Shown piece by piece: positions 8,239 through 41,400 of a stretch of DNA of 61,895 nt; the first letter of the stretch is position 1, and each line of letters begins with the position of its first letter. A program made the position numbers and the translations under genes. Source of the DNA: a virus; IMG/VR virus record IMGVR_UViG_3300035564_000051, positions 1 through 61,895 of that record; one strand, given 5' to 3'. The notes under the pieces are model-generated. The model was not told where the DNA came from. It did no database searches and saw only the letters and a program-made list of their open reading frames with translations.

Positions 8239-8251
8239 ACAGGAGGTTGTC

Positions 8252-13496: not shown

Positions 13497-13536
13497 CTGG
13501 ACAAATATGTCGCACTCACTTTGAGCCTTGAAAACA

Positions 13537-22750: not shown

Positions 22751-23484
22751 TGGAAACCACCGAACTGAGCATCTACCAAAAGGGCGAGATCACCCTGGCT
22801 GAGATTCAAGAGAAAGCCAAAACCCTTCAGATCACCGATGAATCTCTCGGCTACTGGGCGGAGTCAATGGCTATTGCAAGGAAACTCGCAACCAGCCTCG
22901 ATGCCGAGAGAAAACGCGAGAAAGAAGAACCCTTGCTCAAATGTCAGGAGATCGACGCTCGATACGGCGCGCTTATCAAGCCCTGTCAGGAACTCGGCGT
23001 GAAGATCGAAAACACCATTGCAGCCTTCAACCGGGCGAAGAAGGAAGAAGCCGAACGCAAGCAACGCGAGTACGAGCGTCAAGTCAGAGAAGCAGAAGAA
23101 GCCCGACTCGCAGAAGAACGCCGGAAGAAAGAAGAATACGAGCGAGAACTTGCCGAAGCCAAGAAGAAGCAAGAGGAACAAGCGAAGGAAGCGGAGAAGA
23201 AGGGCGTTGAACCCTTCCCTCCGGCAGAGATTCCGAAGCCACCCGAACCAGTGGTCCCGGTCTACGTCGCCCCGCCTCCGCCGATTGAGCCTCCAAAAGC
23301 AAAAATCGCAACCACACTCGGTAGTGTGAAGATCAAAGAGCGATGGACGTATGAAGTGGTGGACTTCAACCTCGTTCCGCGGGAGTTCATGATGGTCGAT
23401 CAAAGGGGCGTAATTGGTGCGATCAACGCCAAGATCGGATTTGTCCGAACCATCCCCGGACTCAGAATCTTTCCAGAGGAATAA
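22750..23484 (+). CDS. Coiled-coil recombination-associated phage protein
   Basis: 244 aa from ATG 22750 in a TGATG overlap. A helical N-terminus is followed by a long, highly charged coiled coil (about 80-155; KKEEAERKQREYERQVREAE and on). A Pro-rich linker (about 160-185) then leads to a small C-terminal domain: WTYEVVDFNLVPREFMMVD...IPGLRIFPEE. This C-terminal pattern, ending in 'IPG.RI..E', recurs in phage proteins encoded beside RecT/ERF recombinases and single-strand binding proteins. No recombinase is recognised here. Role in recombination inferred from family resemblance. Confidence 0.55.
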   Translation: METTELSIYQKGEITLAEIQEKAKTLQITDESLGYWAESMAIARKLATSLDAERKREKEEPLLKCQEIDARYGALIKPCQELGVKIENTIAAFNRAKKEEAERKQREYERQVREAEEARLAEERRKKEEYERELAEAKKKQEEQAKEAEKKGVEPFPPAEIPKPPEPVVPVYVAPPPPIEPPKAKIATTLGSVKIKERWTYEVVDFNLVPREFMMVDQRGVIGAINAKIGFVRTIPGLRIFPEE

Positions 23485-23486
23485 CC

Positions 23487-24044
23487 ATGCCAAAGTATTG
23501 CTTCCTCGACAGTGAGACCGGCGGAACCGACCCCAAGCGCCACGCACTCCTTCAGGTGGCGGGAATCATCGTCACCAACGATCAAGAAGTAGCCTCATTC
23601 AACTTCCACATTCAACCCTTCCCAACGGATGTGGTAGAAGATTCCGCTCTGGCAATCAACGGTATCAAGCGGGAAGAACTCTCAGGCTACGAAGATCCCA
23701 AGAAGGTACACGATATGCTTGTAGGGGCGTTGGGGATTCATGTGGACAAGTTCGACAAGCATGACAAGTACGTTTTCACTGGTTACAAAGCTCAGTTCGA
23801 CTACGACTTCCTCAGAGCATTTTTTGAGAAGTGCGGAGATCAGTACTTCGGCTCGTTTTTCTGGAACCCCGCGCTGGACATAATGACACTGGCATATTCA
23901 AAGCTACTTTCCCGGCGACCGATGATGCCAAACTTCAAACTGGGAACGGTAGCAGCAGAATTTAGCCTGAAGCCCGAAGGAACGCTGCATGATGCCCTGG
24001 CAGACATTCGCCTGACAAAACAACTATTCGACAAACTGAAATGA
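23487..24044 (+). CDS. DnaQ-like 3'-5' exonuclease (DEDDh)
   Basis: 185 aa. Exo I is FLDSETGGTDPKRHALLQVAG (D8, E10); Exo II is YKAQFDYDFLRAFFE; Exo III is LHDALADIRLTKQLF with the H-x(4)-D pair. These give a complete DEDDh set. The enzyme degrades single-stranded DNA or RNA from the 3' end and usually acts in proofreading or nucleic-acid turnover. No polymerase is encoded in the window, so it may act with a host polymerase or in host DNA degradation. It overlaps the zinc-hook gene. Confidence 0.85.
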   Translation: MPKYCFLDSETGGTDPKRHALLQVAGIIVTNDQEVASFNFHIQPFPTDVVEDSALAINGIKREELSGYEDPKKVHDMLVGALGIHVDKFDKHDKYVFTGYKAQFDYDFLRAFFEKCGDQYFGSFFWNPALDIMTLAYSKLLSRRPMMPNFKLGTVAAEFSLKPEGTLHDALADIRLTKQLFDKLK

Positions 24045-24436
24045 CCCCCTCAACAACGTCCGCGCTTTCAGAGAACTCTTTGGTGGGAATCGGGACCCTG
24101 GAGGCGCGGGCGAAGGAGAAAAAGAAACAGTACCTGACCGAGCAAAAGGTCTACCAGCAATCACTCATCACGTTTGAGAACTTGCGCGAAGAACTGGAAG
24201 AGACCGAACGAGCTATCGGAGATTTTGATGACGGCACATGCCCCGTCTGCCACAATCAGCCAGCAAAGACATTCGCTGACCTCAAGGCCAAGCGCACCGA
24301 ACTGGAAACTAAACTTGCAAAAGCCAACGAAGAAAAGGAAGAGAAGAACGTGCTTCTCTATGACATTAGCCTTGAAGTGAATAACCTCGAAACCGAGATC
24401 CATCAGGAACTTCTTAGACAGAGAGGGAAGCTATGA
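24041..24436 (+). CDS. Free-standing Rad50/SbcC-type zinc-hook coiled-coil protein
   Basis: 131 aa, overlapping the exonuclease by ATGA. Two charged coiled-coil arms (about 20-62 and 80-130) flank a CPVC motif at about residue 68 (DGTCPVCHNQPAKT). C-P-x-C between antiparallel coils is the zinc hook by which Rad50/SbcC dimers clasp one metal. The ATPase halves are absent. It could dimerise by zinc, or interfere with host SbcCD/Rad50, a nuclease that attacks phage DNA; the interference idea is an inference. Confidence 0.65.
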   Translation: MTPSTTSALSENSLVGIGTLEARAKEKKKQYLTEQKVYQQSLITFENLREELEETERAIGDFDDGTCPVCHNQPAKTFADLKAKRTELETKLAKANEEKEEKNVLLYDISLEVNNLETEIHQELLRQRGKL

Positions 24437-24636
24437 TCGACCGTACCATGCTCTACTGTTTCGGAAGCCTGATGATTCTCTTTGTTGGCGGTGGTTATGC
24501 AGGGTGGTATCTGGCCGGTGACGATTGGACGCTTCGGGGTATGTTCACATTCGCCGGAGCATTCATAGGAAGTGCATTGTGGTTTATAGGAATGTTCGCA
24601 TGGATGAAATGGAAAACGTACAAAGGAACAAATTAA
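24433..24636 (+). CDS. Small two-span membrane protein
   Basis: 67 aa, overlapping the previous gene by 4 bp. Two hydrophobic helices (LYCFGSLMILFVGGGYAGWYL and MFTFAGAFIGSALWFIGMF) are linked by a short acidic loop, with a basic C-terminus (WMKWKTYKGTN). No family is recognised. Confidence 0.55.
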   Translation: MIDRTMLYCFGSLMILFVGGGYAGWYLAGDDWTLRGMFTFAGAFIGSALWFIGMFAWMKWKTYKGTN

Positions 24637-24649
24637 ACTAGGAGGAAAA

Positions 24650-25171
24650 ATGAAACGCACATCGCTTTACGGAATTCTTATCGCACTTGTGGCAGTCCTA
24701 TTTATGATTGGCCTGACCGCGCTGGTCCAGGGAGATTCCCCTGGAGCTTCAAAGGCATCTGTGTTTCGACAGAAAGCCAATAGGATAGTTCAACTCAGAG
24801 CGCACAATACACCAGTTTCAAAGGATGATTACCTATTGATGGGGTGTGACAATTCTTGCGCGCGCCGCAATCACCCACAGGTTCCAGAAGACGAACTAAG
24901 AGAGTTTATTTGGATGGCCGGAGGTGAAGATTTGAGCGAGCGAGAGGCGGGATATAATGCCGAGGCCACTCAGGATGCTAAAACCGGAAAATGGCACATT
25001 GATAGATTTTTGAACGACTGTACGAAATCCAAATATCAGGCATCTCCAGAGGAAGTCGCATGGCATTATTTGCGCGTGGTGGAACTCCGCGCAAAGGGAA
25101 TACCGAGAGATGAACGTATCGCTACAATGACGGCAGAAGCAAAGGGTAAGCCGTGGTTAAAGCTCAAATGA
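24650..25171 (+). CDS. Protein with N-terminal membrane anchor or signal
   Basis: 173 aa, AGGAGG upstream. MKR is followed by a long hydrophobic segment (LYGILIALVAVLFMIGLTALV), then a charged helical body with four Cys (CDNSCARR..., DCTKSK). The anchor could be a signal peptide or a single span with the body outside the inner membrane. The gap that follows (25172-25287) contains no gene. The function is unknown. Confidence 0.55.
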   Translation: MKRTSLYGILIALVAVLFMIGLTALVQGDSPGASKASVFRQKANRIVQLRAHNTPVSKDDYLLMGCDNSCARRNHPQVPEDELREFIWMAGGEDLSEREAGYNAEATQDAKTGKWHIDRFLNDCTKSKYQASPEEVAWHYLRVVELRAKGIPRDERIATMTAEAKGKPWLKLK

Positions 25172-25287
25172 GTATTGAACCTTAACCCGCTTGTTCTTTT
25201 GTCATTTGGTGTAAGGTCTGACTCGCAGCAACTACATAAGCCATTGTAGTATCGGCGGCGGGTTGGGGTTCTTAAAAGGAAAGAAGG

Positions 25288-25821
25288 ATGGATCATTACG
25301 AATACACTAACGCAGACCGGGAAGCGCTCAAGCGCCAATACCGGAAAAAGTGGGCTGACGAAGAATGGGAACTTCAGCGACAACTTTGGGAAAAACGGGA
25401 AAGGGAAAGAAGGATGAAACTCTACATCTACGATGGGCCTGATGGAATCTTTTGGTCCAAGTATCCACCGAGCGCTCAAAGTCCACTTGTTCTCGGCACA
25501 ATCGAAGTCCAAGAGCCGGGGGAACGATTGCAAATCTTCGATGAACTCTGCCTGAAGTCGGAACTTAAACAGGTAGATGACCTTTTGGCCCGACTGGAAA
25601 TTGAACGATTCGGTTCGACATTTCGGACAAACAGACGAATCGAGCGCATTCTAGGATTGACGAGCGCCCCCAAGAAAACCGTGGTGAAGGAAATACCACT
25701 GCAACTCGTTCCACCAACACCGCGCACTCTGGATTCTGATGGCAATGTTCGTCATTCAATCGCGGTTGGTCTTCCTCCCAAGGCGTTCAACATAAAACTG
25801 ATCTACGAGGATGAACAGTGA
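25288..25821 (+). CDS. Hypothetical protein upstream of the glycan cassette
   Basis: 177 aa with AAGGAAAGAAGG before ATG 25288. The N-terminal 42 residues are highly charged and helical (REALKRQYRKKWADEEWEL). A small alpha/beta part follows (MKLYIYDGPDGIFWSKYPP). Its stop overlaps the GTG start of the membrane glycosyltransferase, so the two are co-translated. No family is recognised. Confidence 0.5.
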   Translation: MDHYEYTNADREALKRQYRKKWADEEWELQRQLWEKRERERRMKLYIYDGPDGIFWSKYPPSAQSPLVLGTIEVQEPGERLQIFDELCLKSELKQVDDLLARLEIERFGSTFRTNRRIERILGLTSAPKKTVVKEIPLQLVPPTPRTLDSDGNVRHSIAVGLPPKAFNIKLIYEDEQ

Positions 25822-27260
25822 AGTTCTCCAAGCGCGACTACATCTTTCTTGCCGTGATAGCAGCCGCAGTTCTGAGCGCGTACAGCCTGCGGTGGCTCTG
25901 TGACGATGTTTTCATAACCCTCCGCTACTCTCAGAACTGGTTAGCCGGAAACGGGATTGTCTACAACATCGGAGAACGGGTCGAAGGTTACACCCATCCA
26001 TTATGGCTAGGGCTCATCACTCTAGGATCTTGGTTAGGTGGAAAGCCTGAGACCCTTGTTCTCTACATGGGACTTGCCTCGCTTGGTGCTGTGCTGTGGT
26101 TCTCCGGCAAGCTGAATATCTTTGCGGCCATACTGCTTGCGATAAATTACGATTTCAGAGTTTGGGCGACGGGTGGCCTGGAGACCATGTTTTTCTCCAT
26201 GCTGCTCGTCGTCGGGGTTTGGTCTCTCTGGCGTGAGAAGTTTCTCTTGGCGGGAATCGCCATGAGTCTTGCGGTATTGACCAGACCAGATGGGATTATC
26301 TTCGCTGCCGTAGGGCTCGCATACATTTTCTACAATGACCGCTTTGAATTGTGGCACTACCTACCTCCATTCATGCTTGTGGTGATTCATCTTCTCTGGC
26401 GGTATTCCTACTACGGCGATCTACTTCCCATGAGCTACTACGCCAAATCAGGTGGGGGCGTGTACTTCTCACAGGGTTTTGAATATCTGTGGACATGGTT
26501 TGGGACCTACCCGTTGAGCCTGATATTCCTGCTGGCACTTCCACTCTTGCGGCGGAATAAGTTTCTCTCATTCCTGTTCGCCTCCATCACGTTCTACCTG
26601 ATACTCTTTGTCGCGCGTGTTGGAGGGGATTTCATGTTTGCCCGGTTTGTCATTCCGGTGCTTCCGATGATGTATCTGTGCGGAGCACTCTCAATCCAAG
26701 CCCTCTGGCCTAACTCCAAGACCTCGATACTCATAGTTCTCTGTGTTCTTTCGATCCGTGAGTCTTCCGTCAGGGATGAAATTCTCACGGCCAAACGTGA
26801 TGGATGGGTAGTAGAAGGAAGGATCATGGACGAGCATTACTTCTGGGTATCTAGTGACAAGCTGGAATCCAGCCGAAGCCTCGGCCTGATAGTGAAGGAT
26901 TATTTTGAAGGTGAAAAGGTAAGGGTTCTGCTTCGCGGTGGTCAAGATGCTTTTGGTTATTACGCCCAGTTCGACTACTGCATGGAAGCTGCGGGATTGA
27001 CAGATGCTCACATTGCAAAATCAGAACTGAGCCAGCGCGGTCAACCCGGACACGAACACGCAGCAACCTTAGACTACATCAAGGAAAAAGGAATTCACTT
27101 CGTATTCTTTCGCCGTGCCTATGACAGGGCCAACGCACAGATATTTTTGAACTTCGGCTCTGGTTACGGTCATGGAGAGATCATCACGCGAGATGATTCG
27201 ATGCTTGCGCGGCTCACAAGGAAATGGGGCAACGCCGTACTGATAGGAGAGAAGGAGTGA
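25818..27260 (+). CDS. GT-C integral membrane glycosyltransferase
   Basis: 480 aa from GTG 25818. About ten hydrophobic spans lie in residues 8-310, followed by a soluble C-terminal domain. The first extracytoplasmic loop after span 1 has LCDDVFITLRYSQNWLAGNG and GERVEGYTHPLWLG, the D-D and 'G.T.P.W' pattern of GT-C enzymes of the PMT/ArnT-like class. These take sugars from polyprenyl-phosphate donors and transfer them outside the cytoplasmic membrane to lipids, glycans or proteins. It begins the glycan cassette. A phage-borne GT-C is uncommon. The acceptor is unknown. Confidence 0.75.
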   Translation: MKFSKRDYIFLAVIAAAVLSAYSLRWLCDDVFITLRYSQNWLAGNGIVYNIGERVEGYTHPLWLGLITLGSWLGGKPETLVLYMGLASLGAVLWFSGKLNIFAAILLAINYDFRVWATGGLETMFFSMLLVVGVWSLWREKFLLAGIAMSLAVLTRPDGIIFAAVGLAYIFYNDRFELWHYLPPFMLVVIHLLWRYSYYGDLLPMSYYAKSGGGVYFSQGFEYLWTWFGTYPLSLIFLLALPLLRRNKFLSFLFASITFYLILFVARVGGDFMFARFVIPVLPMMYLCGALSIQALWPNSKTSILIVLCVLSIRESSVRDEILTAKRDGWVVEGRIMDEHYFWVSSDKLESSRSLGLIVKDYFEGEKVRVLLRGGQDAFGYYAQFDYCMEAAGLTDAHIAKSELSQRGQPGHEHAATLDYIKEKGIHFVFFRRAYDRANAQIFLNFGSGYGHGEIITRDDSMLARLTRKWGNAVLIGEKE

Positions 27261-27562
27261 TGGTAAACGAGGTAAAAAGTCATTCAGGATCGCCTACAAG
27301 CGCGCAAAGAGACCTCTTGATACCTGAGTATAGGCGCAGGCTTCGCCTCGTGCTACGACGATATAAACGCGGAAAGTCACTTCGCTCACTATCGAAGGCT
27401 TTGGGGCTTTCTCATCCGACGGTGCGGACAATACTAGAGCATCCGAACACTTCCGTATCACTGAAGACCATGATGAAAGTTTTGAGAGCAACAAGCAAGC
27501 GCAGGATTCACCTAACCCTGAGTCTGATCGGTCATGTAACAAAAGCCCGGTGTCCGTTCTAA
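27260..27562 (+). CDS. Helix-turn-helix DNA-binding protein
   Basis: 100 aa from ATG 27260 (TGATG overlap). After a basic N-terminus, KSLRSLSKALGLSHPTVRTIL (about 45-65) reads as a Cro/XRE-like HTH with a recognition helix, followed by LKTMMKVLRATSKR. It sits between two glycosyltransferases and may regulate the cassette. Family by pattern only. Confidence 0.55.
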   Translation: MVNEVKSHSGSPTSAQRDLLIPEYRRRLRLVLRRYKRGKSLRSLSKALGLSHPTVRTILEHPNTSVSLKTMMKVLRATSKRRIHLTLSLIGHVTKARCPF

Positions 27563-28641
27563 TGAAGGTCGCAATCATACTTAATCAGGTCTTCCCCTAC
27601 CGCAGTCCGGTGTTCGATCTACTGGGGTCTCACTATACGGTGATTTACAGTTGCCAGAAGGAGGGGAATAGGGGTTGGGAATCTCCCGAACTGAAGCACG
27701 ACTACATTTTCCTCAAACCCCGGATGATTCCCTATGGAGTAGAGGGATTCGCTCATGTCAATTTCGACATATTCAAAGCCTTGAGAGAAGTAGATCCCGA
27801 CGTAATCATTCTCTACGGCTTTGGCCCGACACAGCAACTAGCCTACCTTTGGGCGCGGCTTCACCGTAGAAAGATCGTCACATGGTTCGATGGATGGTCA
27901 CACACAGAGCGAAACAGAAGTAACCGGCAGCTTTGGATTCAGAGAATGTTCGTACGGCATTCTGAGGCGTGTATTGCGAGTAGCCAGAAGGGAAGTCGTT
28001 ACTTCTATTCACTCGGAGCATCAAAAGTATTTGTTGCACCAATGGCAGTTGACAATTCCAGATTCGCACCGGCAAAGAATAAACGTCCCTTCGATCTTCT
28101 CTTCGTCGGCCAGTTGATAGAACGCAAGGGGGTGCTCTTTCTTCCTGAGTTGATGAAAGAACTCCACGACAAGAAGCTAATGATTGTCGGTGACGGACCC
28201 CTGAAGGAAGAATTGCTCAAAAGGCTAATGAACATCCACGCAGACTTTCATCATGTGAGGTTCGTTCCCTGGGAAGAAATCCATTGGTATTATCAAAGGT
28301 CAAAGATACTTCTCTTTCCAACGCTGGATGATTCATGGGGGCTGGTTTGCAATGAAGCACTTGCCGCTGGATGTCCGGTCATAACCACAGACAAAGCCGG
28401 ATGTGCGGGAGAGCTGGTTCGTCACGCGGTTAATGGCGCGATTCCAGTAAGCATGGAACCCGTGTGGTTGTGGGCGCGACCAATAGATGAACTCTGCAAA
28501 CCCAAGTACCGGCGCGCCGCAATCGAATCAGTCAAAGGCTACACCCTCCAAGCTCAAGCCCAAGCGATAAGAGATGCAGTGGCTTGCGCGGCAAAAGAAA
28601 TTCTGTACAGAGAAACGAGAGATGTCTATGAAGAAAACTAG
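27562..28641 (+). CDS. GT4-type glycosyltransferase
   Basis: 359 aa from ATG 27562 in a TAATG overlap. The N-terminal Rossmann half begins MKVAIILNQVFPYRSPVF. The C-terminal half starts near residue 178 with FDLLFVGQLIERKGVLFL and contains IVGDGPL and DSWGLVCNEALAAGCPVITT, the E-x(7)-E region of GT-B family 4 enzymes. These use nucleotide sugars in the cytoplasm to extend lipid-linked glycans. Next to a GT-C enzyme, it could build the donor glycan. Acceptor and sugar are unknown. Confidence 0.85.
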   Translation: MKVAIILNQVFPYRSPVFDLLGSHYTVIYSCQKEGNRGWESPELKHDYIFLKPRMIPYGVEGFAHVNFDIFKALREVDPDVIILYGFGPTQQLAYLWARLHRRKIVTWFDGWSHTERNRSNRQLWIQRMFVRHSEACIASSQKGSRYFYSLGASKVFVAPMAVDNSRFAPAKNKRPFDLLFVGQLIERKGVLFLPELMKELHDKKLMIVGDGPLKEELLKRLMNIHADFHHVRFVPWEEIHWYYQRSKILLFPTLDDSWGLVCNEALAAGCPVITTDKAGCAGELVRHAVNGAIPVSMEPVWLWARPIDELCKPKYRRAAIESVKGYTLQAQAQAIRDAVACAAKEILYRETRDVYEEN

Positions 28642-28879
28642 TCGCGCAATCATTCTAACGCTCGCTTTCTTTGCCCTCCACGTTCTTGTCCGCATGATGG
28701 GAGATAAGTGGAATCCAACCGATGCCTTCATCTTCGGCTACACATGGGGTGGATGGGAATTTGAACTCTGGAAATTGGCCGGAACCCTGACGACGGTTAT
28801 TGTGTGCGTTGCGCTGGCTCTCGGCTTTGGATGGAATCTGGATGCGCTGCTCAAGAAATCGAAGATGAGTCAGAATTGA
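28622..28879 (+). CDS. Small membrane protein in the glycan cassette
   Basis: 85 aa from ATG 28622, overlapping the GT4 gene's end. Two membrane segments are visible: AIILTLAFFALHVLVRMMG and WKLAGTLTTVIVCVALALGFG. The middle is aromatic (TWGGWEFELW). It may be an accessory subunit for membrane sugar transfer, which is an inference from its neighbours. Confidence 0.5.
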   Translation: MSMKKTSRAIILTLAFFALHVLVRMMGDKWNPTDAFIFGYTWGGWEFELWKLAGTLTTVIVCVALALGFGWNLDALLKKSKMSQN

Positions 28880-29178
28880 AACTATCGAAGGTCATAGGGT
28901 TGGTTCAGGAATCTCCGGCACTATTTCTCTTTGCACTAGCCTGCATCTGGGTTGTGTTTATCGAACTGTTCAGAAAGGGATTTCCGATGGATTACACATT
29001 CAAGGTCGAAATCATTCGTGAGGGAGAGGATAGCGAAACGATCCATCGGGCCGTTTCTGCAACCAGCTTCGATGAAGCACTCAAGAAATTGCGTAATGAA
29101 ATCAGGAAGCGCCGCCCCTTGGATAAGTACTACCCCCTGGTGAGAGTTCTCTGGTTTGAAATTAACAAAGTCATTTGA
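28876..29178 (+). CDS. Small membrane-anchored protein
   Basis: 100 aa if it starts at TTG 28876, which overlaps the previous stop. It has one hydrophobic span (ALFLFALACIWVVFIELF) followed by a small alpha/beta domain (DYTFKVEIIREGEDSETIHRAV...FDEALKKLR). A start at ATG 28987 would remove the span. The C-terminus overlaps the methyltransferase gene. The function is unknown. Confidence 0.45.
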   Translation: MKLSKVIGLVQESPALFLFALACIWVVFIELFRKGFPMDYTFKVEIIREGEDSETIHRAVSATSFDEALKKLRNEIRKRRPLDKYYPLVRVLWFEINKVI

Positions 29179-29857
29179 GGCGGAATTGAACAAAGAACTC
29201 ACATACGACAGACTGTTTGAAGTGATGAAGGCTCGCTCAAGCGACTACGACACAGAGCGTCGAGCCTATTGGCTTGTTGACCGTTTCTTGTATGGTAAGC
29301 TCTATGACAAGAAGGTGCTGGATGTCGGAGCCGGATGTGGCTATGCGACTCGGAAGTTAATAAACGACTTGGGGGATGTTACTGCGCTAGATATAAGCCC
29401 GAAGATGGTCGAACACCTTTCGCACTTTTGTTATGCTCAACAAGCAAACATCTTTGACGTGTGCGGGTATTTCGGAGCCAGTGCGTTTGATATTGTCCAT
29501 TCATCCGAGTGCATCGAGCACACCCCGAATCCCCCGGCTGCAATCCGTCAGATGTGTTGGGTGTTAAAACCCGGAGGCTATCTTGCACTCAGCACACCGA
29601 ACCTTTTGTGGTGGCCGATTGTAAAACTGGCGAGCATCTTGAAACTCCGACCCTTTGACGGCTATGAGAACTTCAGCACGTTCGCCGGTCTCAGAAAAAC
29701 TCTTGAAGATGCAGGAATGGAAGTCATAGAAGCGCGGGGTTTGCATCTGTTCCCATTTCAGATCCCGCTACACGACCTGTCAGGTTGGTGCGATATTCAC
29801 CTGCAATGCCTGAAGCACTTGATGATAAACATACTCATCCTCGCGAGGAAGAAATGA
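29156..29857 (+). CDS. Class I SAM-dependent methyltransferase
   Basis: 233 aa; start taken at TTG 29156. Motif I is KKVLDVGAGCGYATRKL (about 52), then VTALDISPKMVEHL, motif IV FDIVHSSECIEHTPNP and LKPGGYLALSTPN. This is the standard small-molecule methyltransferase fold (UbiG/Methyltransf_11 type). In a run of glycosyltransferases it could methylate a sugar. It overlaps the preceding small protein and is followed by a membrane protein. Confidence 0.8.
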   Translation: MKLTKSFEAELNKELTYDRLFEVMKARSSDYDTERRAYWLVDRFLYGKLYDKKVLDVGAGCGYATRKLINDLGDVTALDISPKMVEHLSHFCYAQQANIFDVCGYFGASAFDIVHSSECIEHTPNPPAAIRQMCWVLKPGGYLALSTPNLLWWPIVKLASILKLRPFDGYENFSTFAGLRKTLEDAGMEVIEARGLHLFPFQIPLHDLSGWCDIHLQCLKHLMINILILARKK

Positions 29858-30168
29858 AAACCGGAAACATCTGGAAAGATCGAGGTAACTACAAGATTTA
29901 TTTCGACCGATGGAGAAACTACCTGGGAAGCGCCCAGTTCCTCTTGATCCTCATAATGTTCATCATTCAAACCAAGATGAGTCTATGGTGGATCGTTGGT
30001 GGATTTCTTCTGTCAGTAGTCTGGATGTGGGTTGACGTTCGCTACATCCTTTCGGCTGAGTACGAATCTCAACAGCGCAAGAACTGGGAACTCACATCGA
30101 GGATGAAGAAGATCGACCACATAGAAACGATGTTGGAGAAACTAACAGGAGAAAAGAATGCAGGGTGA
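29854..30168 (+). CDS. Two-span membrane protein
   Basis: 104 aa from ATG 29854 (the longer frame from 29785 is inside the methyltransferase). Two hydrophobic helices (AQFLLILIMFIIQTK and MSLWWIVGGFLLSVVWMWV) are followed by a charged coiled-coil tail (MKKIDHIETMLEKLTGE). Probably a membrane accessory or unrelated phage membrane protein; no family recognised. Confidence 0.5.
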   Translation: MKTGNIWKDRGNYKIYFDRWRNYLGSAQFLLILIMFIIQTKMSLWWIVGGFLLSVVWMWVDVRYILSAEYESQQRKNWELTSRMKKIDHIETMLEKLTGEKNAG

Positions 30169-30715
30169 AGGAATGAGATGTAGCGTTGATGGTTGTGATG
30201 TAGCCTACCACTCTCGCGGTCTATGCCATAATCACTACCGAATGTTTTTGAAATATGGCAGGTATTTCATTAGACACGCGGTGCGCGGCCCCAACCACGG
30301 ACTTTCCCGGACTCCTGAGTACGTAAGCTGGACATGCATGAAGGGCCGATGCTATAATCGCGCCATAAAGAGCTTCAAGCATTACGGCGGTCGGGGGATA
30401 AAAGTTTGTGATCGGTGGCTGCAATCCTTCGAGAACTTTCTCGCAGACATGGGTGAGCGCCCTTCACTGAGGCACACGATTGAGCGGATAAACAATGACG
30501 GAAACTACGAGCCGAATAACTGCAAGTGGATAATAGCGGAGCATCAGGCATTGAACAGGCGAAGCACAAAGATAACCCGAAGTCAGATAGCGGACGTTGT
30601 TGACCTTATTCGATCAAAGGACTATACGCACCTAGAGATAGCGAAAATCTACGGCGTATCGGAAAGCAATATTGCCTATTACCACAAGAAATATGCGAAG
30701 GGAGCAGCGGAATGA
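30158..30715 (+). CDS. HNH homing-endonuclease-like protein
   Basis: 185 aa. A CxxxxC...C..H knuckle (MRCSVDGCDVAYHSRGLCHNHY) is followed by the phage HNH pattern: YVSWTCMKGRCYN, HYGGRGIKVCDRWLQSFENF, DMGERPS...TIERINNDGNYEPNNCKW. A C-terminal resolvase-like HTH (LEIAKIYGVSESNIAYYHKK) would bind DNA. It lies inside the glycan cassette, between a membrane gene and the radical SAM pair, and is typical of mobile free-standing homing nucleases. Confidence 0.8.
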   Translation: MQGEGMRCSVDGCDVAYHSRGLCHNHYRMFLKYGRYFIRHAVRGPNHGLSRTPEYVSWTCMKGRCYNRAIKSFKHYGGRGIKVCDRWLQSFENFLADMGERPSLRHTIERINNDGNYEPNNCKWIIAEHQALNRRSTKITRSQIADVVDLIRSKDYTHLEIAKIYGVSESNIAYYHKKYAKGAAE

Positions 30716-31338
30716 GCCGGTACTACAGAGGTCTATTCTTCAAGAGGGGATATAGTGTGCGAATCTCGCTTTTGTTCGAGTGCTCGCTCCAACCTTTGTG
30801 TTCCTACTGTTGTTTGACGGTTCCGACGGGTCAACGGGCGAAATCTCGACGCGCAACACTTGAGGAATGGAAAACCTTCATCGAGAACTTCCCCCTCAAG
30901 ATCAAAGAACTCCATCTCTGCGGTGGGGAACCTTCTTTGCTATCGTGGATGCCACGACTCGCCAACTGGCTTCTCGACAAAGGGCATCACGTAACGATCT
31001 ACACCAATCTTCACAATGTAGAAACGCTTTGCCGAATCCGTCCGTCGAAAAGGTTGATGATTATTTCCACCTATCATCATCAGGATGATGCCCTCAAGTA
31101 CACGCGTTCCTACGAGCGATTGACTGCGGCGGGTTACGAGGTAAGGGTGGGGGAAATGAACGACGGTTCTCCGGGCTGGAAGAAGGTCATGCCCTATTCC
31201 AAACTCAAGACGCTCTATCCCGATCAAAAATCTCTCCACGACATTTCCGACAGGGAGCGACAACTCATCGTTGCGCCCGATCTGACGATCTACTCGGGTT
31301 GCTGGGAGCAATACATGGACAAGGGGAGGCCACAATGA
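30712..31338 (+). CDS. Radical SAM enzyme 1
   Basis: 208 aa. The cluster-binding cysteines are in ECSLQPLCSYCC (C-x5-C-x2-C, a widened spacing compared with C-x3-C-x2-C). LCGGEPSL is the GGE motif that binds SAM, and WLLDKGHHVTIYTNL follows. It would use a 4Fe-4S cluster and SAM to make a 5'-deoxyadenosyl radical. It is paralogous to the next gene. Its context (glycosyl- and methyltransferases) suggests sugar or peptide modification; the substrate is unknown. No SPASM domain follows. Confidence 0.7.
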   Translation: MSRYYRGLFFKRGYSVRISLLFECSLQPLCSYCCLTVPTGQRAKSRRATLEEWKTFIENFPLKIKELHLCGGEPSLLSWMPRLANWLLDKGHHVTIYTNLHNVETLCRIRPSKRLMIISTYHHQDDALKYTRSYERLTAAGYEVRVGEMNDGSPGWKKVMPYSKLKTLYPDQKSLHDISDRERQLIVAPDLTIYSGCWEQYMDKGRPQ

Positions 31339-31958
31339 CCCGCTTCCTCGGTATTGAACTGTACGAGAAAACCAAGTTGCTCAAGCGCGGGGAATCTGTG
31401 GTCCTGATGATAACCTTCGATTGCAACCTGGACTGTTCTTTCTGTCTGATTCACCTTCCCGGCGGCAAGAGGGCATACATGGAAAGTGAAGGAATCGGCT
31501 ATTGGAAACACGCCGTGGAACTGCTTCCGGTCAAGGTCAGGGAGTTCTACATATCAGGCGGAGAATTGACCCTGCCGCAATTTTCTTGGCTGCCAGAATT
31601 TCTCACATGGCTCTTAGATAAAGGCTATCACGTTACACTCACAACCAATCTCTATGACATCGCGCCGATACTGAAGATTCCGAAAAGGCACAACTTCCAG
31701 ATCAGTTCGACCTTCCACCCCGAGGCTGACCTGTGGGATTTTGATAACAAGTTTTGGAAGCTGAGAAACGCTGGCTACCGGATTGAGGCAAAGGAACTCG
31801 GCAAGAAGAAACTCCTGACCTATTCAACCCTGGAGCCGATCAGAAGTAAGGAGATGCTCTACTTTGACAAACGGATGCTTCACCTATGCAGTAAAAACAG
31901 AATCTACATCGGGGAATACGAGATGTCGATTGCATGTACACCGAAGGAGGCCAAATGA
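31335..31958 (+). CDS. Radical SAM enzyme 2
   Basis: 207 aa from ATG 31335 in an ATGA overlap. DCNLDCSFC is a canonical C-x3-C-x2-C cluster motif, ISGGELTL is the GGE motif, and WLLDKGYHVTLTTNL mirrors the previous protein. It appears to be a tandem duplicate of radical SAM enzyme 1 with a divergent second half, including LHLCSKNRIYIGEYEMSIAC near the end. A pair could act on one product in two steps, or as a complex. Confidence 0.78.
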   Translation: MTRFLGIELYEKTKLLKRGESVVLMITFDCNLDCSFCLIHLPGGKRAYMESEGIGYWKHAVELLPVKVREFYISGGELTLPQFSWLPEFLTWLLDKGYHVTLTTNLYDIAPILKIPKRHNFQISSTFHPEADLWDFDNKFWKLRNAGYRIEAKELGKKKLLTYSTLEPIRSKEMLYFDKRMLHLCSKNRIYIGEYEMSIACTPKEAK

Positions 31959-32608
31959 GCTTCTTCGCCCGGTTCAAAATACTTCGTCTCTTGAAAAGAT
32001 TCATCTGGGTGCATCTGAACATCTGGGCCTACCCCGATACGATCGTACGAGATGCGATCCTAAAGCATGTCAAGCCCGGAACTCGGTGTATTGATGTGGG
32101 TGCTCACAGGGGGAGAATGACAGACCTGATGCTCAAATGCTGTGGCACTTCGGGAATGGTCAACGCCTTTGAACCCCTGCCGGATTTTTGCCATGCCCTA
32201 GAGGACAAATACCGTCGGACGAGGAATGTGTTTGTGTTTAACACCGCGCTTGGTGATATACCACCTAGAAGGATGCCCTCAGTAGCTTGTTTTGCTCGAA
32301 CCGAAGATCCGCTGATGTCATCATTTCATCCCGACTCGAAGTGCAAGGTTATCGAGTTCCTCACGGTCTCTGTCCGATCTCTCGACTCATACCATTTTGA
32401 AGGAATCGGCTTTATCAAGATCGACGTAGAAGGATGGGAACCGGAAGTCCTGAAGGGTGCGGAAGAGACCATCAACAAGTATCACCCCGTGATAATCGCG
32501 GAATGTTTGCCCGGTTCAAAGAATGCAAGTCCGATGATAGAGTTTTTTGAATCACACGGATATGGAACAATCCACTATCCATACGAAATCCTTGCGGTGA
32601 AGATATGA
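31955..32608 (+). CDS. FkbM-family methyltransferase
   Basis: 217 aa from ATG 31955, chosen for AAGGAGG at 31944-31950. It contains CIDVGAHRGRMTDLML (motif I), NAFEPLPDFCHAL, LTVSVRSLDSYHFEGIGFIKIDVEGWEPEVLKGA and PVIIAECL. The FIKIDVEG block is diagnostic of FkbM-type O-methyltransferases, which often methylate sugars of surface glycans or natural products. It lies between the radical SAM pair and a GT9 gene. Confidence 0.88.
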   Translation: MSFFARFKILRLLKRFIWVHLNIWAYPDTIVRDAILKHVKPGTRCIDVGAHRGRMTDLMLKCCGTSGMVNAFEPLPDFCHALEDKYRRTRNVFVFNTALGDIPPRRMPSVACFARTEDPLMSSFHPDSKCKVIEFLTVSVRSLDSYHFEGIGFIKIDVEGWEPEVLKGAEETINKYHPVIIAECLPGSKNASPMIEFFESHGYGTIHYPYEILAVKI

Positions 32609-33459
32609 TGCTGAGAGAGCGTATCCACGACAGGCTTCTTCACTCGTACAGCAATCTCGTCATGCCAAGCGGCCAGCCGGGGGGAAGGGTTCTGATTCCC
32701 TGCAATGTGGGCTACGGAGACTTGGTATTTCTGCTTCCGGTCCTGCGGGCATTAGATGGTAAAGACACCACGCTGGTTCTTGATGATACCGACAAAGCAG
32801 ACTTCTTGCGGCAGGTGGGAATCCAGAACGCATGGATATTCCCCTGGGAGCGGCTTCATGCCACAGAGTATGATACCATCATCTGCACCCATGCCCAACA
32901 GTGGACTCCGATCATCTACCAGGTGATCGACAAAAGGATTCCATGCCGGATCGGGCATATCTGGAGGGAAAAGTACTCATGGGCTTGGACTCACAAGGTT
33001 CCGTTCGTGGACGGTTGGCATGAGAGAACCAATAACGCATCGCTCTTGGAACCATTTAAGTTGAAACCGATACACAGGAAGATCGAGATAGAACCCGAGC
33101 GAGGATTCGACGTTCTCATTGCCCCAAACACAACGAGTCCCGAGAAGGATTGGGATGGTTACGATGAACTTGCAAGGAAAATATTTGCGACACCGAACAC
33201 ATTCTCGTTCACAACGATATACGAGAAACTTCCGATGAATAAGCTCTTACGGGCCATCGCCGGTGCTCGCCTTATCATTGGCAACGACTCAGGGCTCCCC
33301 AAGATTGCCGATGCAATGGGAATACCTGCGATACAGATATTCAAAGCATGTGGCTGGCAACCATCGCGTTCAGGGCTCTCTCATGGAATTGACCTTGTAG
33401 AACCAACGGTAGATGAAGTTTTCACTCGCGCACAAATAATCTTACAGGAGAAACAATGA
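32605..33459 (+). CDS. GT9-like (heptosyltransferase-type) glycosyltransferase
   Basis: 284 aa, overlapping the FkbM gene. The N-terminal half has RVLIPCNVGYGDLVFLLPVLRAL, the acceptor-side signature of GT9, and DTIICTHAQQ. The C-terminal half has VLIAPNTTSPEKDWDGYDEL and GARLIIGNDSGLPKIADAMGIP, the nucleotide-sugar site of GT9. These enzymes add heptose or other sugars to lipopolysaccharide core. A role in modifying a surface glycan is likely; the exact sugar is unknown. It ends the cassette. Confidence 0.78.
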   Translation: MMLRERIHDRLLHSYSNLVMPSGQPGGRVLIPCNVGYGDLVFLLPVLRALDGKDTTLVLDDTDKADFLRQVGIQNAWIFPWERLHATEYDTIICTHAQQWTPIIYQVIDKRIPCRIGHIWREKYSWAWTHKVPFVDGWHERTNNASLLEPFKLKPIHRKIEIEPERGFDVLIAPNTTSPEKDWDGYDELARKIFATPNTFSFTTIYEKLPMNKLLRAIAGARLIIGNDSGLPKIADAMGIPAIQIFKACGWQPSRSGLSHGIDLVEPTVDEVFTRAQIILQEKQ

Positions 33460-33749
33460 CCAAACAACTCTCTCTCATCACCGAGGACAAGTTAGATCCT
33501 CAGATAGCCAAAGACGCTGATCGTTACGTCGAGGCCGTCAAAGAGGTTAAGGACGCAACCGAGCGCAGGAAGAAGTTCGCGGGCCTGATTGTCCGCGCCC
33601 TGAAGAAGCTCGGCAAGTCAAAGGTTCGTCATGGCGACATCATCATCGAGGTCGCATCGAAGGAAGCCATTGACACCATCAAGATCAAGAAGGCAAAGGC
33701 CGCGCCCGTGAAGAAGGTTCAGCCAATCAAAGCGCCGGAAAAGAAATGA
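33456..33749 (+). CDS. Small Lys-rich protein
   Basis: 97 aa, overlapping the GT9 gene (ATGA). Helical N-terminal two thirds (DADRYVEAVKEVKDATERRKK...ALKKLGKSKVRHGDIIIEV), then a Lys/Ala/Pro tail (KKAKAAPVKKVQPIKAPEKK) resembling a histone-like disordered tail that might bind DNA. It is near the size of small phage nucleoid-type proteins, but no family is recognised. Confidence 0.5.
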   Translation: MTKQLSLITEDKLDPQIAKDADRYVEAVKEVKDATERRKKFAGLIVRALKKLGKSKVRHGDIIIEVASKEAIDTIKIKKAKAAPVKKVQPIKAPEKK

Positions 33750-34048
33750 GTGTTGACCGTACTCCATCCGACAAGTTTGAGCGCTCCGAGACTCAGGCGC
33801 GCAATACTGCCAGAGGCCAATTAGAGATCATCCTTGCCAATCCGAAAGCACTTTTGTCTCTCAGGGGAGGGACAAAGAAGTTATCGGACGCAAGAGACCT
33901 TGACAAGCGAATGAAATCCGGCGAGCCGTTCAGTCCGGGGCAGTACTCGTACGTGGATGGTTTGTACGAAGCAACGATGAAAGGTCTCGGGCTTCCATCG
34001 GTAGATAATCACCGGGACAGACGATCAACACTGAGGCATCCCGTATGA
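33746..34048 (+). CDS. Small basic hypothetical protein
   Basis: 100 aa, overlapping the previous gene. Contains a helix (TQARNTARGQLEIILANPKALLSL) and a conserved-looking DLDKRMKSGEPFSPGQYSYVDGLYEATMKGLGLPS. No family recognised. It is part of a dense run of overlapping small genes. Confidence 0.5.
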   Translation: MSVDRTPSDKFERSETQARNTARGQLEIILANPKALLSLRGGTKKLSDARDLDKRMKSGEPFSPGQYSYVDGLYEATMKGLGLPSVDNHRDRRSTLRHPV

Positions 34049-34140
34049 CCTCTTCCACCAGATACATTCTTGCATGGTTGGGGATGTGTATTTGTTTTCT
34101 GGCAATCTGTCAACTCTTAGTACCGTTGGTTATGAATTAA
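34045..34140 (+). CDS. 31-aa membrane peptide
   Basis: ATG at 34045 overlaps the previous stop (ATGA). The product is MTSSTRYI, then one hydrophobic helix (LAWLGMCICFLAICQLLVPLV) ending VMN. The overlap and the clean hydrophobic span support coding. Confidence 0.45.
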   Translation: MTSSTRYILAWLGMCICFLAICQLLVPLVMN

Positions 34141-34150
34141 GGAGGATGAA

Positions 34151-34318
34151 ATGGAAGCAATGAAACGCGCAGAAGAATTCGTTAAAAAATACCCCGAACT
34201 GTTCACTCGGCACGTACCCCGAGAACTCATAACCACTCGGCTTGCGATCCTGATTTTGGAAGCAGAGCGCGATGAAGTCAAGGCCGGAAGAAAAATGATT
34301 CAGGGGGTGAAAGTATGA
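34151..34318 (+). CDS. 55-aa helical protein
   Basis: ATG at 34151 preceded by AAGGAGG. All-helical acidic/basic peptide (MEAMKRAEEFVKKYPELF, then RLAILILEAERDEVKAG). It ends in an ATGA overlap with the next gene. The function is unknown. Confidence 0.5.
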   Translation: MEAMKRAEEFVKKYPELFTRHVPRELITTRLAILILEAERDEVKAGRKMIQGVKV

Positions 34319-34527
34319 CCTTCCGCGAGAGAATAGACTCATTTCCCGAACCACATAGGTCTCAGATGCTTGCTAACGCGAGCGAGGAAGTTCTGAAGTC
34401 TGAGGACAACAAACACACTGATGCGGGAATAGTTGCATCTGCTTTCAAGTGGGATGATTCACCGGAGATGTATGATTACTGGAGATCATTCTACCGAGAG
34501 CTTGACAAGAAGGAGAAGCCGCTATGA
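34315..34527 (+). CDS. Small helical protein
   Basis: 70 aa between two ATGA overlaps. Helical and acidic with an aromatic C-terminus (FKWDDSPEMYDYWRSFYREL). No family recognised. Confidence 0.5.
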   Translation: MTFRERIDSFPEPHRSQMLANASEEVLKSEDNKHTDAGIVASAFKWDDSPEMYDYWRSFYRELDKKEKPL

Positions 34528-34724
34528 ACCGGCGAGGATTCTTTGGAGGACTGGCAGCATTACCGCTCGCGCTGAAAAATCAAGCCACAGAGGACAAAAC
34601 TATAACAGTCGAGCCGATTGAAGGTCACGAAATCTACGCAGGCGATATGCTGATGGTAACACAAACAGATGATCGGAAACTGAGAGCTTTCCCTGTGTTC
34701 TCTGCCGCAAAGGAAAAACCATGA
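34524..34724 (+). CDS. Small protein with a twin-arginine signal peptide
   Basis: 66 aa. The N-terminus MNRRGFFGGLAALPLALKNQ has the Tat pattern R-R-x-F-F followed by a short, weakly hydrophobic Ala/Leu stretch. The remaining 46 residues are a small beta-like domain (IEGHEIYAGDMLMVTQTDDR...). If real, the protein would be exported folded. No Cys or metal motif is visible. The function is unknown. Confidence 0.55.
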   Translation: MNRRGFFGGLAALPLALKNQATEDKTITVEPIEGHEIYAGDMLMVTQTDDRKLRAFPVFSAAKEKP

Positions 34725-35185
34725 GTGCCACAGAGATTGACGCGCGGCTCCGACCCCTATTCGATGAGATTCAAAAAGCCCGTACATGGGGAGTTACACA
34801 CGATCAGCTCGCAGATACCTTCGAGCGCGCCATAGGACGGACTGACTTCGAGAGATTCCTTGAGACGCGGAAGAACGCCAAACTTCAACCGGGCAACCTG
34901 AGAGAAAAGCGCAAGCACTATTCGCCATCCTACAAACAGAAACTCTATGACCATCAAGGCGGTGCGTGTCCCTGGTGTCCCGAACCCTTATTCATTCCAG
35001 CCAAGAGAAACGAGGTCGATCACATTAACGTGAACCTTCCGCCGGAAGAATATGAGACAAGGAAGAATCATTGTTTGGCTCACCCGAAATGCAATCGGTC
35101 AAAGAACGCAACGTCATTGGCCGATCTGTCTAAGCGAACCGGGATCACGATGGTAGAAATTCTCTCGAAGGGATTAGAAGCATGA
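34721..35185 (+). CDS. HNH endonuclease
   Basis: 154 aa. The HNH core is YDHQGGACPWCPEPL (C-x2-C), NEVDHINVNLP (the D-H of the beta-beta-alpha metal finger) and CLAHPKCNRSKNAT (C-N-x-x-K-x). It is preceded by a helical N-terminus with a DNA-binding feel (VTHDQLADTFERAIGRTD). Free-standing HNH proteins in phages are homing nucleases or packaging-associated nickases. Here the neighbours are accessory genes, not terminase. Confidence 0.75.
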   Translation: MSATEIDARLRPLFDEIQKARTWGVTHDQLADTFERAIGRTDFERFLETRKNAKLQPGNLREKRKHYSPSYKQKLYDHQGGACPWCPEPLFIPAKRNEVDHINVNLPPEEYETRKNHCLAHPKCNRSKNATSLADLSKRTGITMVEILSKGLEA

Positions 35186-35361
35186 AGCGAATAAGCACGA
35201 AGAGCGCGTCGGGGCCAGCCGTGTCAAAGTGTCAATGTCCAAAAGAAGAAATGAAGTTTTGGACTTTTCGCAAGTCTGACGGCAAACCGATCTATCTTTG
35301 CAACAAGCACAATACATCGCGCGTACTGGATATTCCAATCACTGAGGTCAAGCGTGACTAA
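35182..35361 (+). CDS. 59-aa zinc-ribbon-like peptide
   Basis: ATG 35182 overlaps the HNH gene stop. Cys pair CQC (residues about 17-19) with a later C-N-K-H (LCNKHN) suggests a small zinc site. Basic ends (MKRISTKSAS; EVKRD). It overlaps the next frame by 8 bp. The function is unknown. Confidence 0.45.
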   Translation: MKRISTKSASGPAVSKCQCPKEEMKFWTFRKSDGKPIYLCNKHNTSRVLDIPITEVKRD

Positions 35362-35470
35362 GACCAGCAGAATGTTCCTTACCATTGCGATCATCTTAGC
35401 CATTGCAGAGACTTTAAGGCGCGTAAAGAGAGCATTTGGGCCAAGAGAGGACGATCAATGGTGGATATGA
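35354..35470 (+). CDS. 38-aa membrane peptide
   Basis: GTG 35354 start; one hydrophobic span (MFLTIAIILAIAETL) then a basic and aromatic tail (RRVKRAFGPREDDQWWI). It overlaps both neighbours (8 and 13 bp). Supported only by its hydrophobic core and the overlaps. Confidence 0.35.
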   Translation: MTKTSRMFLTIAIILAIAETLRRVKRAFGPREDDQWWI

Positions 35471-35796
35471 GCACATACTTAAACTCTGACCCGCGCCAGC
35501 TCAACATTTTCCATTTGGCCACCGAAACACGCGATGAGTCCTACCATGCAATGATAAAGGATCTCACCAACCGACAAAAGTCAGTTTATGACATTCTTTG
35601 TAGGGGGGATAGGTGCAATGAAGAGATTGCGGCAGCCCTAGGCTGGCCAATCAATAGGGTAACTGGAAGGGTGTATGAACTCAGAGGATTATCGAAGTCG
35701 CACCCGATGGACCCTCCGAGAGTATTTTCAGCCGGAAAAGAGATTAGACCCGGTACAAACAGGCGCGTAGAAGTCTGGACTGTTAAGAAACCATAA
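35458..35796 (+). CDS. Winged-helix DNA-binding protein
   Basis: 112 aa from ATG 35458 with AAGAGAGG upstream. LTNRQKSVYDILCRGDRCNEEIAAALGWPINRVTGRVYELRG (about 35-78) has the spacing of a winged-helix/MarR-like HTH: helix, 'N-E-E-I-A-A-A-L', recognition helix, then wing residues KSHPM...RRVEVWTV. Likely a transcriptional regulator or DNA-binding accessory. Confidence 0.55.
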   Translation: MVDMSTYLNSDPRQLNIFHLATETRDESYHAMIKDLTNRQKSVYDILCRGDRCNEEIAAALGWPINRVTGRVYELRGLSKSHPMDPPRVFSAGKEIRPGTNRRVEVWTVKKP

Positions 35797-35808
35797 GGAG
35801 TTCACCCC

Positions 35809-35862
35809 ATGATCCAAGTACTTACCGGCGATGCCTTGGAAGTGAAAGGACAAGGGAAATGA
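35809..35862 (+). other. 17-codon mini-ORF resembling a DNA methyltransferase N-terminus
   Basis: AAGGAG precedes ATG 35809. The product MIQVLTGDALEVKGQGK opens like many phage/bacterial DNA methyltransferases ('..GDaLevL..') and then stops, overlapping the ATG of the next gene. It is either a decayed methyltransferase start or a translational leader. Confidence 0.35.
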
Positions 35863-36677
35863 AAACTTCAATCGAATGGACTGATGCAACGTGGAATCCA
35901 GTCACAGGATGCACGAAGGTCTCTCCCGGATGTAAGAATTGCTATGCGGAAGCGATTGCGCTTCGCCTGTGGGGTCGTCGGAAGTTCACCGACGTTCGAC
36001 TTGAATCTGCGCGCCTCAAATATCCGCTTCATTGGCGCAAACCGCGAATGGTTTTCGTGAACTCAATGAGTGACCTATTCCACCCAGACGTTCCATTCGA
36101 TTTTGTGGACGCGGTTTTCGAGACGATCTGCACCGCCAAGCATCACACCTATCAAATTCTCACCAAGCGGGGCGCGCGCATGAGAGAATACTTTGACCTG
36201 ATGAACAAGAACGCCTTCATCCCGGAAAATGTTTTGATTGGTGTTTCGTGCGAGAACCGCGAAATGGCGACCTTACGAATACCACAACTTCAAGACATTG
36301 ATCTTGCGCGGCGATTCATCAGCTTCGAGCCGCTCCTTGAGGACGCGGGCGAACTTGACCTCACGGGAATCGAATGGGTAATCATTGGAGGCGAATCTGG
36401 CCCGAACGCGAGACCCTTCAATATCGAATGGGCGCGCAACATTATCCGGCAATGCAAGGCCGCGAAAATCCCGGTATTTATGAAACAGGTGGGATCGAAT
36501 CCAGATGTTTACGACATAACGACGACGCGGCAAGGTGATACTGTTCGCATCAGAGAAAAGCGCGCGCGCTTGAAATCTCGCAAGGGTTCCGACCCATCTG
36601 AATGGCCAAAAGATTTGAGAGTGCGCGAATATCCTTCCCTTGCCTCAATCAATCCTCTTTTTTCAAAGGACCCATAA
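35859..36677 (+). CDS. DUF5131 (phage Gp37/Gp68 family) protein
   Basis: 272 aa. The N-terminus MKTSIEWTDATWNPVTGCTKV with SPGCKNCYAE is diagnostic of the family: a radical-SAM-like C-x(6)-C-x2-C cluster, with the order WNP..GC....GC.NCYA. Also present are MVFVNSMSDLFHPDVP, TKRGARM, IGVSCEN and VIIGGESGPNARP. The cysteine set suggests a 4Fe-4S cluster. Its biochemical role is not established, although it is frequent in phages and mobile elements. Confidence 0.88.
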   Translation: MKTSIEWTDATWNPVTGCTKVSPGCKNCYAEAIALRLWGRRKFTDVRLESARLKYPLHWRKPRMVFVNSMSDLFHPDVPFDFVDAVFETICTAKHHTYQILTKRGARMREYFDLMNKNAFIPENVLIGVSCENREMATLRIPQLQDIDLARRFISFEPLLEDAGELDLTGIEWVIIGGESGPNARPFNIEWARNIIRQCKAAKIPVFMKQVGSNPDVYDITTTRQGDTVRIREKRARLKSRKGSDPSEWPKDLRVREYPSLASINPLFSKDP

Positions 36678-36719
36678 CCAAATGACACAGAGAGAGCACC
36701 CCTCACTATTGGAGGCACA

Positions 36720-36974
36720 ATGAGCGAACAAACCTTACTTGAAAAAGCGAAATCATTCAAGCCGCCAGTTAATTCTCACGAAAAATTCAGCGACGAATAC
36801 GTTGAGTTGGCTGTGGCTTTTTTGAATGGCGAAGTAAGTAACTCTCAAGTGAAGCGTGCCATCGACAAGGAGAGGGCGGGGTCAAGTTATATTTACAGAA
36901 TCGGAATCGCTATTCGCACCGCTATTGCCGACGGTAGGCTCGAACCGATAACATTCAAACGGGAGGCCAAATGA
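36720..36974 (+). CDS. Small hypothetical protein
   Basis: 84 aa with GGAGG before ATG 36720. Helical (EQTLLEKAKSFKPPV; DEYVELAVAFLNGEVSNSQVKRAIDKERAG), the middle resembling a helix-turn-helix (LNGEVSNSQVKRAI). It overlaps the coiled-coil gene that starts the boundary-repeat array. The function is unknown. Confidence 0.45.
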   Translation: MSEQTLLEKAKSFKPPVNSHEKFSDEYVELAVAFLNGEVSNSQVKRAIDKERAGSSYIYRIGIAIRTAIADGRLEPITFKREAK

Positions 36975-37498
36975 GCGACCCTGAAATTCTCACCGAGGAA
37001 AAGCTGGACGAAATCTTAGCCGATCATCCACACCCCGAATCAGTAGCGCGAGACTATGTAGTCCACGAACTGATATTCAACATTCGGGAGGCGAGGAAAG
37101 AATTAGCGAAGGTAAGGGAAGAACACGCTGTTGTCATTCAGAATATCAACGACAACTGGCAAGGGCTTTACAATGCGAGAATTGAACAGGCAAACGCCCA
37201 ACTCTCTCAGGCAAAGGCAGAGGTGGAGAGACTTCAATCAATTACCCTTCACGATACAGGTCGTGTAGTAGATGCAGAAGCGAAGGTTGTTGCGCTTGAG
37301 GTCGATGTTGCCACCCTTCGCCGTGACTTGTCAGAGGCGTATGAGGCAATTAGGAAATCGCAAGCTGTTCTTGCGGGATGGATTGTTCCCGATAGCATTG
37401 TGACTGACGCTGAAGCTCTGGACAAACTACTCGGAATCCTCGATGACAAGAAACTTGTAGCGTTTCTCACCGCACAGAAAGCGAGGGATGGGGAATGA
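36971..37498 (+). CDS. Coiled-coil protein, array member 1
   Basis: 175 aa, ATGA start overlap. A long charged coil (about 40-135) includes LSEAYEAIRKSQ, shared with the genes at 37844 and 39044. It ends AFLTAQKARDGE, a C-terminus shared with three other array genes. The gene finishes inside a repeated boundary sequence that also carries the next gene's ribosome site. The function is unknown; it looks like a mosaic of recombined segments. Confidence 0.55.
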   Translation: MSDPEILTEEKLDEILADHPHPESVARDYVVHELIFNIREARKELAKVREEHAVVIQNINDNWQGLYNARIEQANAQLSQAKAEVERLQSITLHDTGRVVDAEAKVVALEVDVATLRRDLSEAYEAIRKSQAVLAGWIVPDSIVTDAEALDKLLGILDDKKLVAFLTAQKARDGE

Positions 37499-41305: not shown

Positions 41306-41400
41306 TCCTTTCCCTCACTTGGAGTTGAAATTCAAATGAATGTTGCACCAATGGGTACCTTTTACCGAATATGGACACCAAGAGCAAGGAACAGAGAGGG

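Follow-up and report, generated by a model that had tools for sequence, protein, structure and literature searches.

An AftB-like membrane glycosyltransferase in a putative glycan-modification cassette of an SU10-like phage

Introduction

What does a run of glycan-type enzymes, with a membrane glycosyltransferase of the GT-C fold among them, do in a phage? The question is raised by positions 25818-33459 of IMGVR_UViG_3300035564_000051, a whole IMG/VR record of 61,895 bases, called here the window; the record is classed as linear and the window may therefore be a genome fragment. It encodes a phage terminase (PHROG 979 E 1.9e-33) and proteins with SU10 hallmarks, a capsid protein and an adaptor (PF17236 E 1.2e-9, PF24175 E 4.4e-7), and the phage is therefore an SU10-like podovirus. 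Every open reading frame (ORF) in 25818-33459 lies on the + strand and most of them overlap the next. On balance, we favour the reading that this region, a variable cargo region of the phage, encodes enzymes that alter a host-cell glycan during infection, with the GT-C enzyme using a host polyprenyl-phosphate pentofuranose on the periplasmic side of the membrane.

The membrane glycosyltransferase resembles AftB

The gene at 25818-27260 encodes a 480-aa membrane glycosyltransferase (GT), assigned by sequence, fold and conserved residues. Its N-terminal part matches AftB (NF041481 E 6.7e-15; PDB 9dlf by phmmer, E 6.8e-13). Built on an alignment of 38 sequences, the AlphaFold2 model has high confidence (pLDDT 87, pTM 0.90), and Foldseek places AftB at the top (E 2.7e-12, TM 0.66/0.52), the PDB ranking being headed by two AftB entries followed by ArnT and ALG9. 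Orthology with AftB was considered and rejected, the NF041481 equivalog score being 54 bits vs a cutoff of 1050; because of that distance, sequence and model place the phage enzyme in the AftB-like GT-C superfamily and not in AftB proper.

In AftB, D62 is the proposed nucleophile and T91, R221 and R372 contact the phosphate (PMC12041299). They align with D30, T59, R156 and R276 of the phage protein, residues kept in 37-38 of the 38 GT-C relatives. GT-C enzymes of the AftB/ArnT/PglB fold work on the outer face of the inner membrane, and the product would therefore be expected on the host surface. Among the functions suggested in the initial annotation, remodelling of the cell surface fits this periplasmic enzyme best, and modification of the virion may still apply to the cytoplasmic enzymes of the cassette. 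Comparison of GT-C with predicted viral structures gave no match at E 0.001, annotated phages contained no relatives, and a single-sequence search of IMG/VR gave no match.

A probable host-made sugar donor

Co-occurrence was scored in 198 genomes from the phylum of locus L022, with a match at E 1e-20 for decaprenyl-phosphate phosphoribosyltransferase (DPPR synthase). A gene of this type was present in all 22 genomes with the GT-C family vs 51 of the 176 without it (73/198 overall). The association (Fisher p 3e-11, a value that ignores the relatedness of the genomes) is strong but not independent evidence. In Legionella adelaidensis a GT-C relative is located directly behind the DPPR synthase gene, and the latter adjoins GT-C genes in L014, L116 and L117. 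In the Ignavibacteriota/Bacteroidota loci L116:3060-8932 and L117:3378-9128 it is flanked by GT-C-like genes, an arrangement that suggests polyprenyl-phosphate pentose chemistry in genomes where DprE1 is not recognisable. Five DPPR synthase-like proteins exceed the NF008977 NCBIfam cutoff.

DPPR synthase is encoded neither in the window nor in the contig of the sister phage described below. Since the GT-C family co-occurs with an enzyme that the phage lacks, the donor would be a host-made polyprenyl-phosphate pentose, and the phage probably draws on the pentofuranose form. A DprE1-type ALO domain was found in only 1 of 25 such genomes, with Corynebacterium glutamicum positive as control; ribose is as likely to be the donor pentose as arabinose.

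Relatives of the GT-C enzyme

In a tree of 61 proteins the phage GT-C pairs with its homologue from L102, a different viral contig (support 99/89), and the two nest in a clade with three Ignavibacteriota/Bacteroidota proteins (support 100/99). This placement suggests, without proving it, an Ignavibacteriota/Bacteroidota host. Further viral contigs hold remoter relatives: in L105 the gene follows one for a tail fibre, and in L103 it is close to those for terminase and portal. AftB-like GT-C genes have thus entered phages more than once, the branches of L103-L105 being long and their placement unsure. In L103, an unrelated phage contig, the AftB-like gene (8001-9260) is preceded by one for a membrane protein of similar size (the pair at 6691-9260), a short distance downstream of the genes for terminase and portal. 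Two other GT-C loci, L051 and L057, come from a metagenome-assembled genome titled Klebsiella pneumoniae and group with an environmental gammaproteobacterial one, next to Myxococcota; these contigs look mislabelled or mis-binned.

Searches for the other cassette genes beside cellular GT-C genes returned two weak stray matches only. Equating the content of the region with that of a host surface-polysaccharide locus, as had been done initially, was thus too strong, for sugar-nucleotide, export and initiating genes are absent from the identified genes and the cellular GT-C loci lack the other cassette genes.

Variable gene content upstream of the terminase

The TerL of the sister phage, IMGVR_UViG_3300036760_000267, shares 76% identity over 514 aa with that of the window. 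The cassette of this phage, located some 6-12 kb upstream of the terminase gene, is a different one and comprises an NAD-dependent epimerase, a GT4, a DegT-like aminotransferase (named by eye, not by family search), a class I methyltransferase and small membrane proteins. The two cassettes sit at non-identical positions relative to the common flanking genes and therefore define a region of variable content upstream of the terminase rather than a single exact locus; 25818-33459 is a variable cargo region. The helix-turn-helix (HTH) protein of the window cassette has a homologue in the sister phage (59% identity over 56 aa), and the likeness between a small membrane protein and one of the sister phage was not significant. 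In a 67-kb relative further removed (G005, loci L017-L020) GT4 is absent and tblastn gave no relatives of the cassette, though a GT2-like glycosyltransferase, recognised by eye, lies among the tail genes at 40801-42090 of the reversed contig. A capsid profile recovered no new relatives of the window phage, and positions 23000-37000 had no DNA-level match in phages.

An enzyme content unusual for a phage could also arise if a host polysaccharide locus had been joined to phage contigs during assembly, the case foreseen initially as refuting the cassette. Such a chimera is extremely unlikely: the ends of the cassette overlap neighbouring phage-type ORFs, its dinucleotide composition is unexceptional for the record, its HTH gene has a homologue and the whole an analogous counterpart in the sister phage, an HNH gene lies inside it and the nearest GT-C belongs to another phage.

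That HNH endonuclease (30158-30715; PHROG 374 E 5e-40, PHROG 3377 E 2.7e-39), which had gone unnamed, is probably a homing or mobility gene. Its presence bears on the idea that the region holds unrelated cargo genes, without a common pathway, gathered and kept adjacent by HNH homing and recombination. The GT-C gene of L102 occurs without other recognised glycosyltransferases, the set of the sister phage is quite different and the combination in the window was seen in none of the cellular GT-C loci, all of which would agree with such a gathering. However, eight cassette genes overlap in one direction, six of them from glycan-type enzyme families, and the sister set is likewise of glycan type, which makes a random collection quite unlikely. 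The identification of a phage-borne glycan-modification cassette is supported by enzyme content, phage setting and the sister cassette, with the endonuclease as an addition.

The other genes of the cassette

Downstream of GT-C, the small HTH DNA-binding protein of phage lineage (27260-27562; HTH_23 PF13384 E 2.7e-5, just under cutoff) has a likely start at ATG 27260, preceded, as read from the sequence, by GAGAAGGAG. A GT4 glycosyltransferase follows, with a likely start at ATG 27562 (27562-28641; PF00534 E 1e-23; PHROG 2170 glycosyltransferase E 1.8e-13), and then two small membrane proteins predicted by hydropathy, one with two transmembrane helices and no Pfam match (28622-28879) and one with a single helix and an inferred TTG start at 28876 (28876-29178). 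A class I S-adenosylmethionine (SAM)-dependent methyltransferase (29156-29857; PF13489 E 7.5e-18) precedes a third such protein, a predicted two-helix hairpin with a charged C-terminal tail, again with no Pfam match (29854-30168). Four small membrane proteins had been counted; hydropathy yields three inside 25818-33459, and additional ones lie upstream, outside the cassette, at 24433-24636 and 24650-25171. Beyond the endonuclease are two radical SAM proteins, an FkbM-family methyltransferase (31934-32608; TIGR01444 E 2.2e-23, over cutoff; PF05050 E 3.2e-17) and a GT9, heptosyltransferase-like glycosyltransferase with a divergent N-terminal half (32605-33459; PF01075 E 5e-9, over cutoff). GT9 had no match in a single-sequence search of IMG/VR. 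The same-strand, overlapping run initially described is therefore present, its GT4, methyltransferase, FkbM and GT9 members being clear and GT-C recognised by sequence and fold. The HTH and radical SAM calls are less secure, their Pfam scores lying under cutoff; they are favoured by the HTH homologue of the sister phage and, for the pair, by the cysteine triads and mutual identity described next.

The radical SAM proteins, rSAM1 (30712-31338; PF04055 E 1.3e-5) and rSAM2 (31335-31958; PF04055 E 8.6e-4), are tandem paralogues, 35% identical, with a cysteine triad in each: CX5CX2C in rSAM1 and the usual form, CX3CX2C, in rSAM2. Annotated phages contained no relatives of either and a single-sequence search of IMG/VR with rSAM2 gave no match; a profile search of IMG/VR with the pair matched a QueE-like protein alone. 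Structure prediction gave a poor model (pLDDT 62) with no significant Foldseek match. An identity as viperins was considered and set aside, viperin-like scores being taken as superfamily resemblance. From the context, our guess is that the pair acts on a sugar.

Weak scores to QueE- and viperin-like families, whose enzymes use nucleotide substrates, together with a DNA methyltransferase elsewhere in the phage, would also accord with modification of phage DNA or RNA against restriction by the glycosyltransferases, methyltransferases and radical SAM proteins. This is very unlikely, as FkbM, GT9 and GT-C are glycan enzyme families, a membrane GT-C cannot reach cytoplasmic DNA, and among the scanned proteins none was recognised as a base-modifying synthase, a hydroxymethylase or a deazaguanine gene product.

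GT4, GT9 and the methyltransferases might instead decorate capsid or tail proteins, GT-C being a separate cargo gene with a role of its own, as its isolated occurrence in L102 would allow. Soluble glycosyltransferases and methyltransferases work in the cytoplasm, where virions are assembled, and the glycosyltransferases of one mycobacteriophage have been taken to suggest capsid glycosylation (PMC11256854). Nevertheless, the cassette is located about 10 kb from the structural genes and forms one overlapping run with GT-C, an enzyme whose solved relatives have a periplasm-facing active site; virion glycosylation is thus an unlikely main role.

Elsewhere in the window, 13528-15867 encodes a 779-aa protein with a LAGLIDADG-like domain, perhaps an intein or homing insertion, 16364-16804 a Peptidase C39 family protein (PF03412 E 1.7e-7) and 35859-36677 a DUF5131 protein (PF07505 E 3.9e-83).

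A model of host surface modification

If the cassette alters a glycan of the infected cell, GT-C, in the inner membrane, would transfer ribo- or arabinofuranose, supplied on a polyprenyl phosphate of host origin, to a glycan or glycoprotein of the surface, working on the periplasmic side. From the cytoplasmic side GT4 and GT9 would attach sugars, the two methyltransferases would cap or decorate these sugars and the radical SAM pair would probably alter a sugar. The changed host surface would most likely stop competing phages from adsorbing. The GT-C enzyme TfpW adds arabinose to pilins and confers protection against phages (PMC11841053), and lipopolysaccharide-type genes of pelagimyophages are proposed to prevent co-infection (PMC7029224); by analogy with these precedents a phage-blocking role is plausible. 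Gene content, phage context, the fold and active-site residues of GT-C and the cellular co-occurrence of its family with the donor-pathway gene are observed; we infer the donor, the acceptor, the timing of expression, the benefit to the phage and a single glycan common to all the enzymes.

Several observations weigh against this model. The host, donor and acceptor of the cassette are putative. The co-occurrence of GT-C and DPPR synthase is confined to one phylum and confounded by shared ancestry, and arabinose is doubtful because of the scarcity of DprE1-type domains. The nearest cellular GT-C genes are solitary, outside polysaccharide clusters. Family searches of the identified cassette ORFs revealed no sugar-nucleotide synthesis gene, no Wzx, Wzy or ABC exporter, no polymerase and no initiating transferase. 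GT9, rSAM1 and rSAM2 lack close relatives; GT9 had zero matches at E 1e-6 in the 198 genomes of the presumed host phylum, and an rSAM profile, a weak probe of two rows, had none in 296 genomes of the GT-C host phylum.

A bolder version of the model is doubtful. It states that in phages of Ignavibacteriota-like hosts GT-C taps a non-mycobacterial host polyprenyl-phosphate pentofuranose, probably ribofuranose, and furanosylates the surface for superinfection exclusion, within an exchangeable cassette that includes a new sugar-modifying radical SAM pair.

Comparison with known systems

Pelagimyophages also carry glycosyltransferases and sugar enzymes in hypervariable regions, with a proposed modification of the host O-chain; they belong to another phage lineage, their genes, situated close to tail fibres, are largely of GT8 and deoxy-sugar type, and the available part of the report mentions neither an AftB-like GT-C nor a radical SAM pair (PMC7029224). 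TfpW, the pilin arabinosyltransferase of Pseudomonas aeruginosa, by description (PMC11841053) resembles the activity proposed for the phage enzyme, being a periplasmic-face GT-C that handles a pentofuranose and alters phage adsorption. It differs in being host-encoded and paired with a pilin gene, the acceptor of the phage GT-C being putative. Phage gtr cassettes use a polyprenyl-phosphate sugar on a host surface glycan and bring about superinfection exclusion. The window cassette resembles the serotype-conversion cassettes of this kind, such as that of Salmonella phage epsilon34 (PMC2629481), as a putative phage-borne means of changing a host surface glycan. It differs from them in having many more enzymes and an apparently host-made donor, in the lack of any Pfam or PHROG match to GtrA or GtrB among the scanned cassette ORFs (all except 28876-29178) and in belonging to a phage in which no integrase was identified.

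AftB itself, the mycobacterial terminal beta-(1,2)-arabinofuranosyltransferase (PDB 9dlf, 9dlh), shares with the phage enzyme the GT-C fold, the nucleophilic Asp, the Thr, the two phosphate-binding Arg and, probably, a polyprenyl-phosphate pentofuranose donor. The phage protein is shorter, 480 aa vs about 670 in the solved AftB chain, with a smaller C-terminal part, and the genomes of its relatives mostly lack a recognised DprE1. Phage glycan cassettes are already known, and what is new here is an AftB-like GT-C, with an apparent dependence on a host polyprenyl-phosphate pentose, together with a radical SAM pair. If this is true, a phage would exploit for surface remodelling a host intermediate known mainly from mycobacterial arabinan synthesis, in a phylum where such chemistry is little described; the system provides a donor that can be tested (host DPPR synthase), catalytic residues that can be mutated and two related phages with different cassettes.

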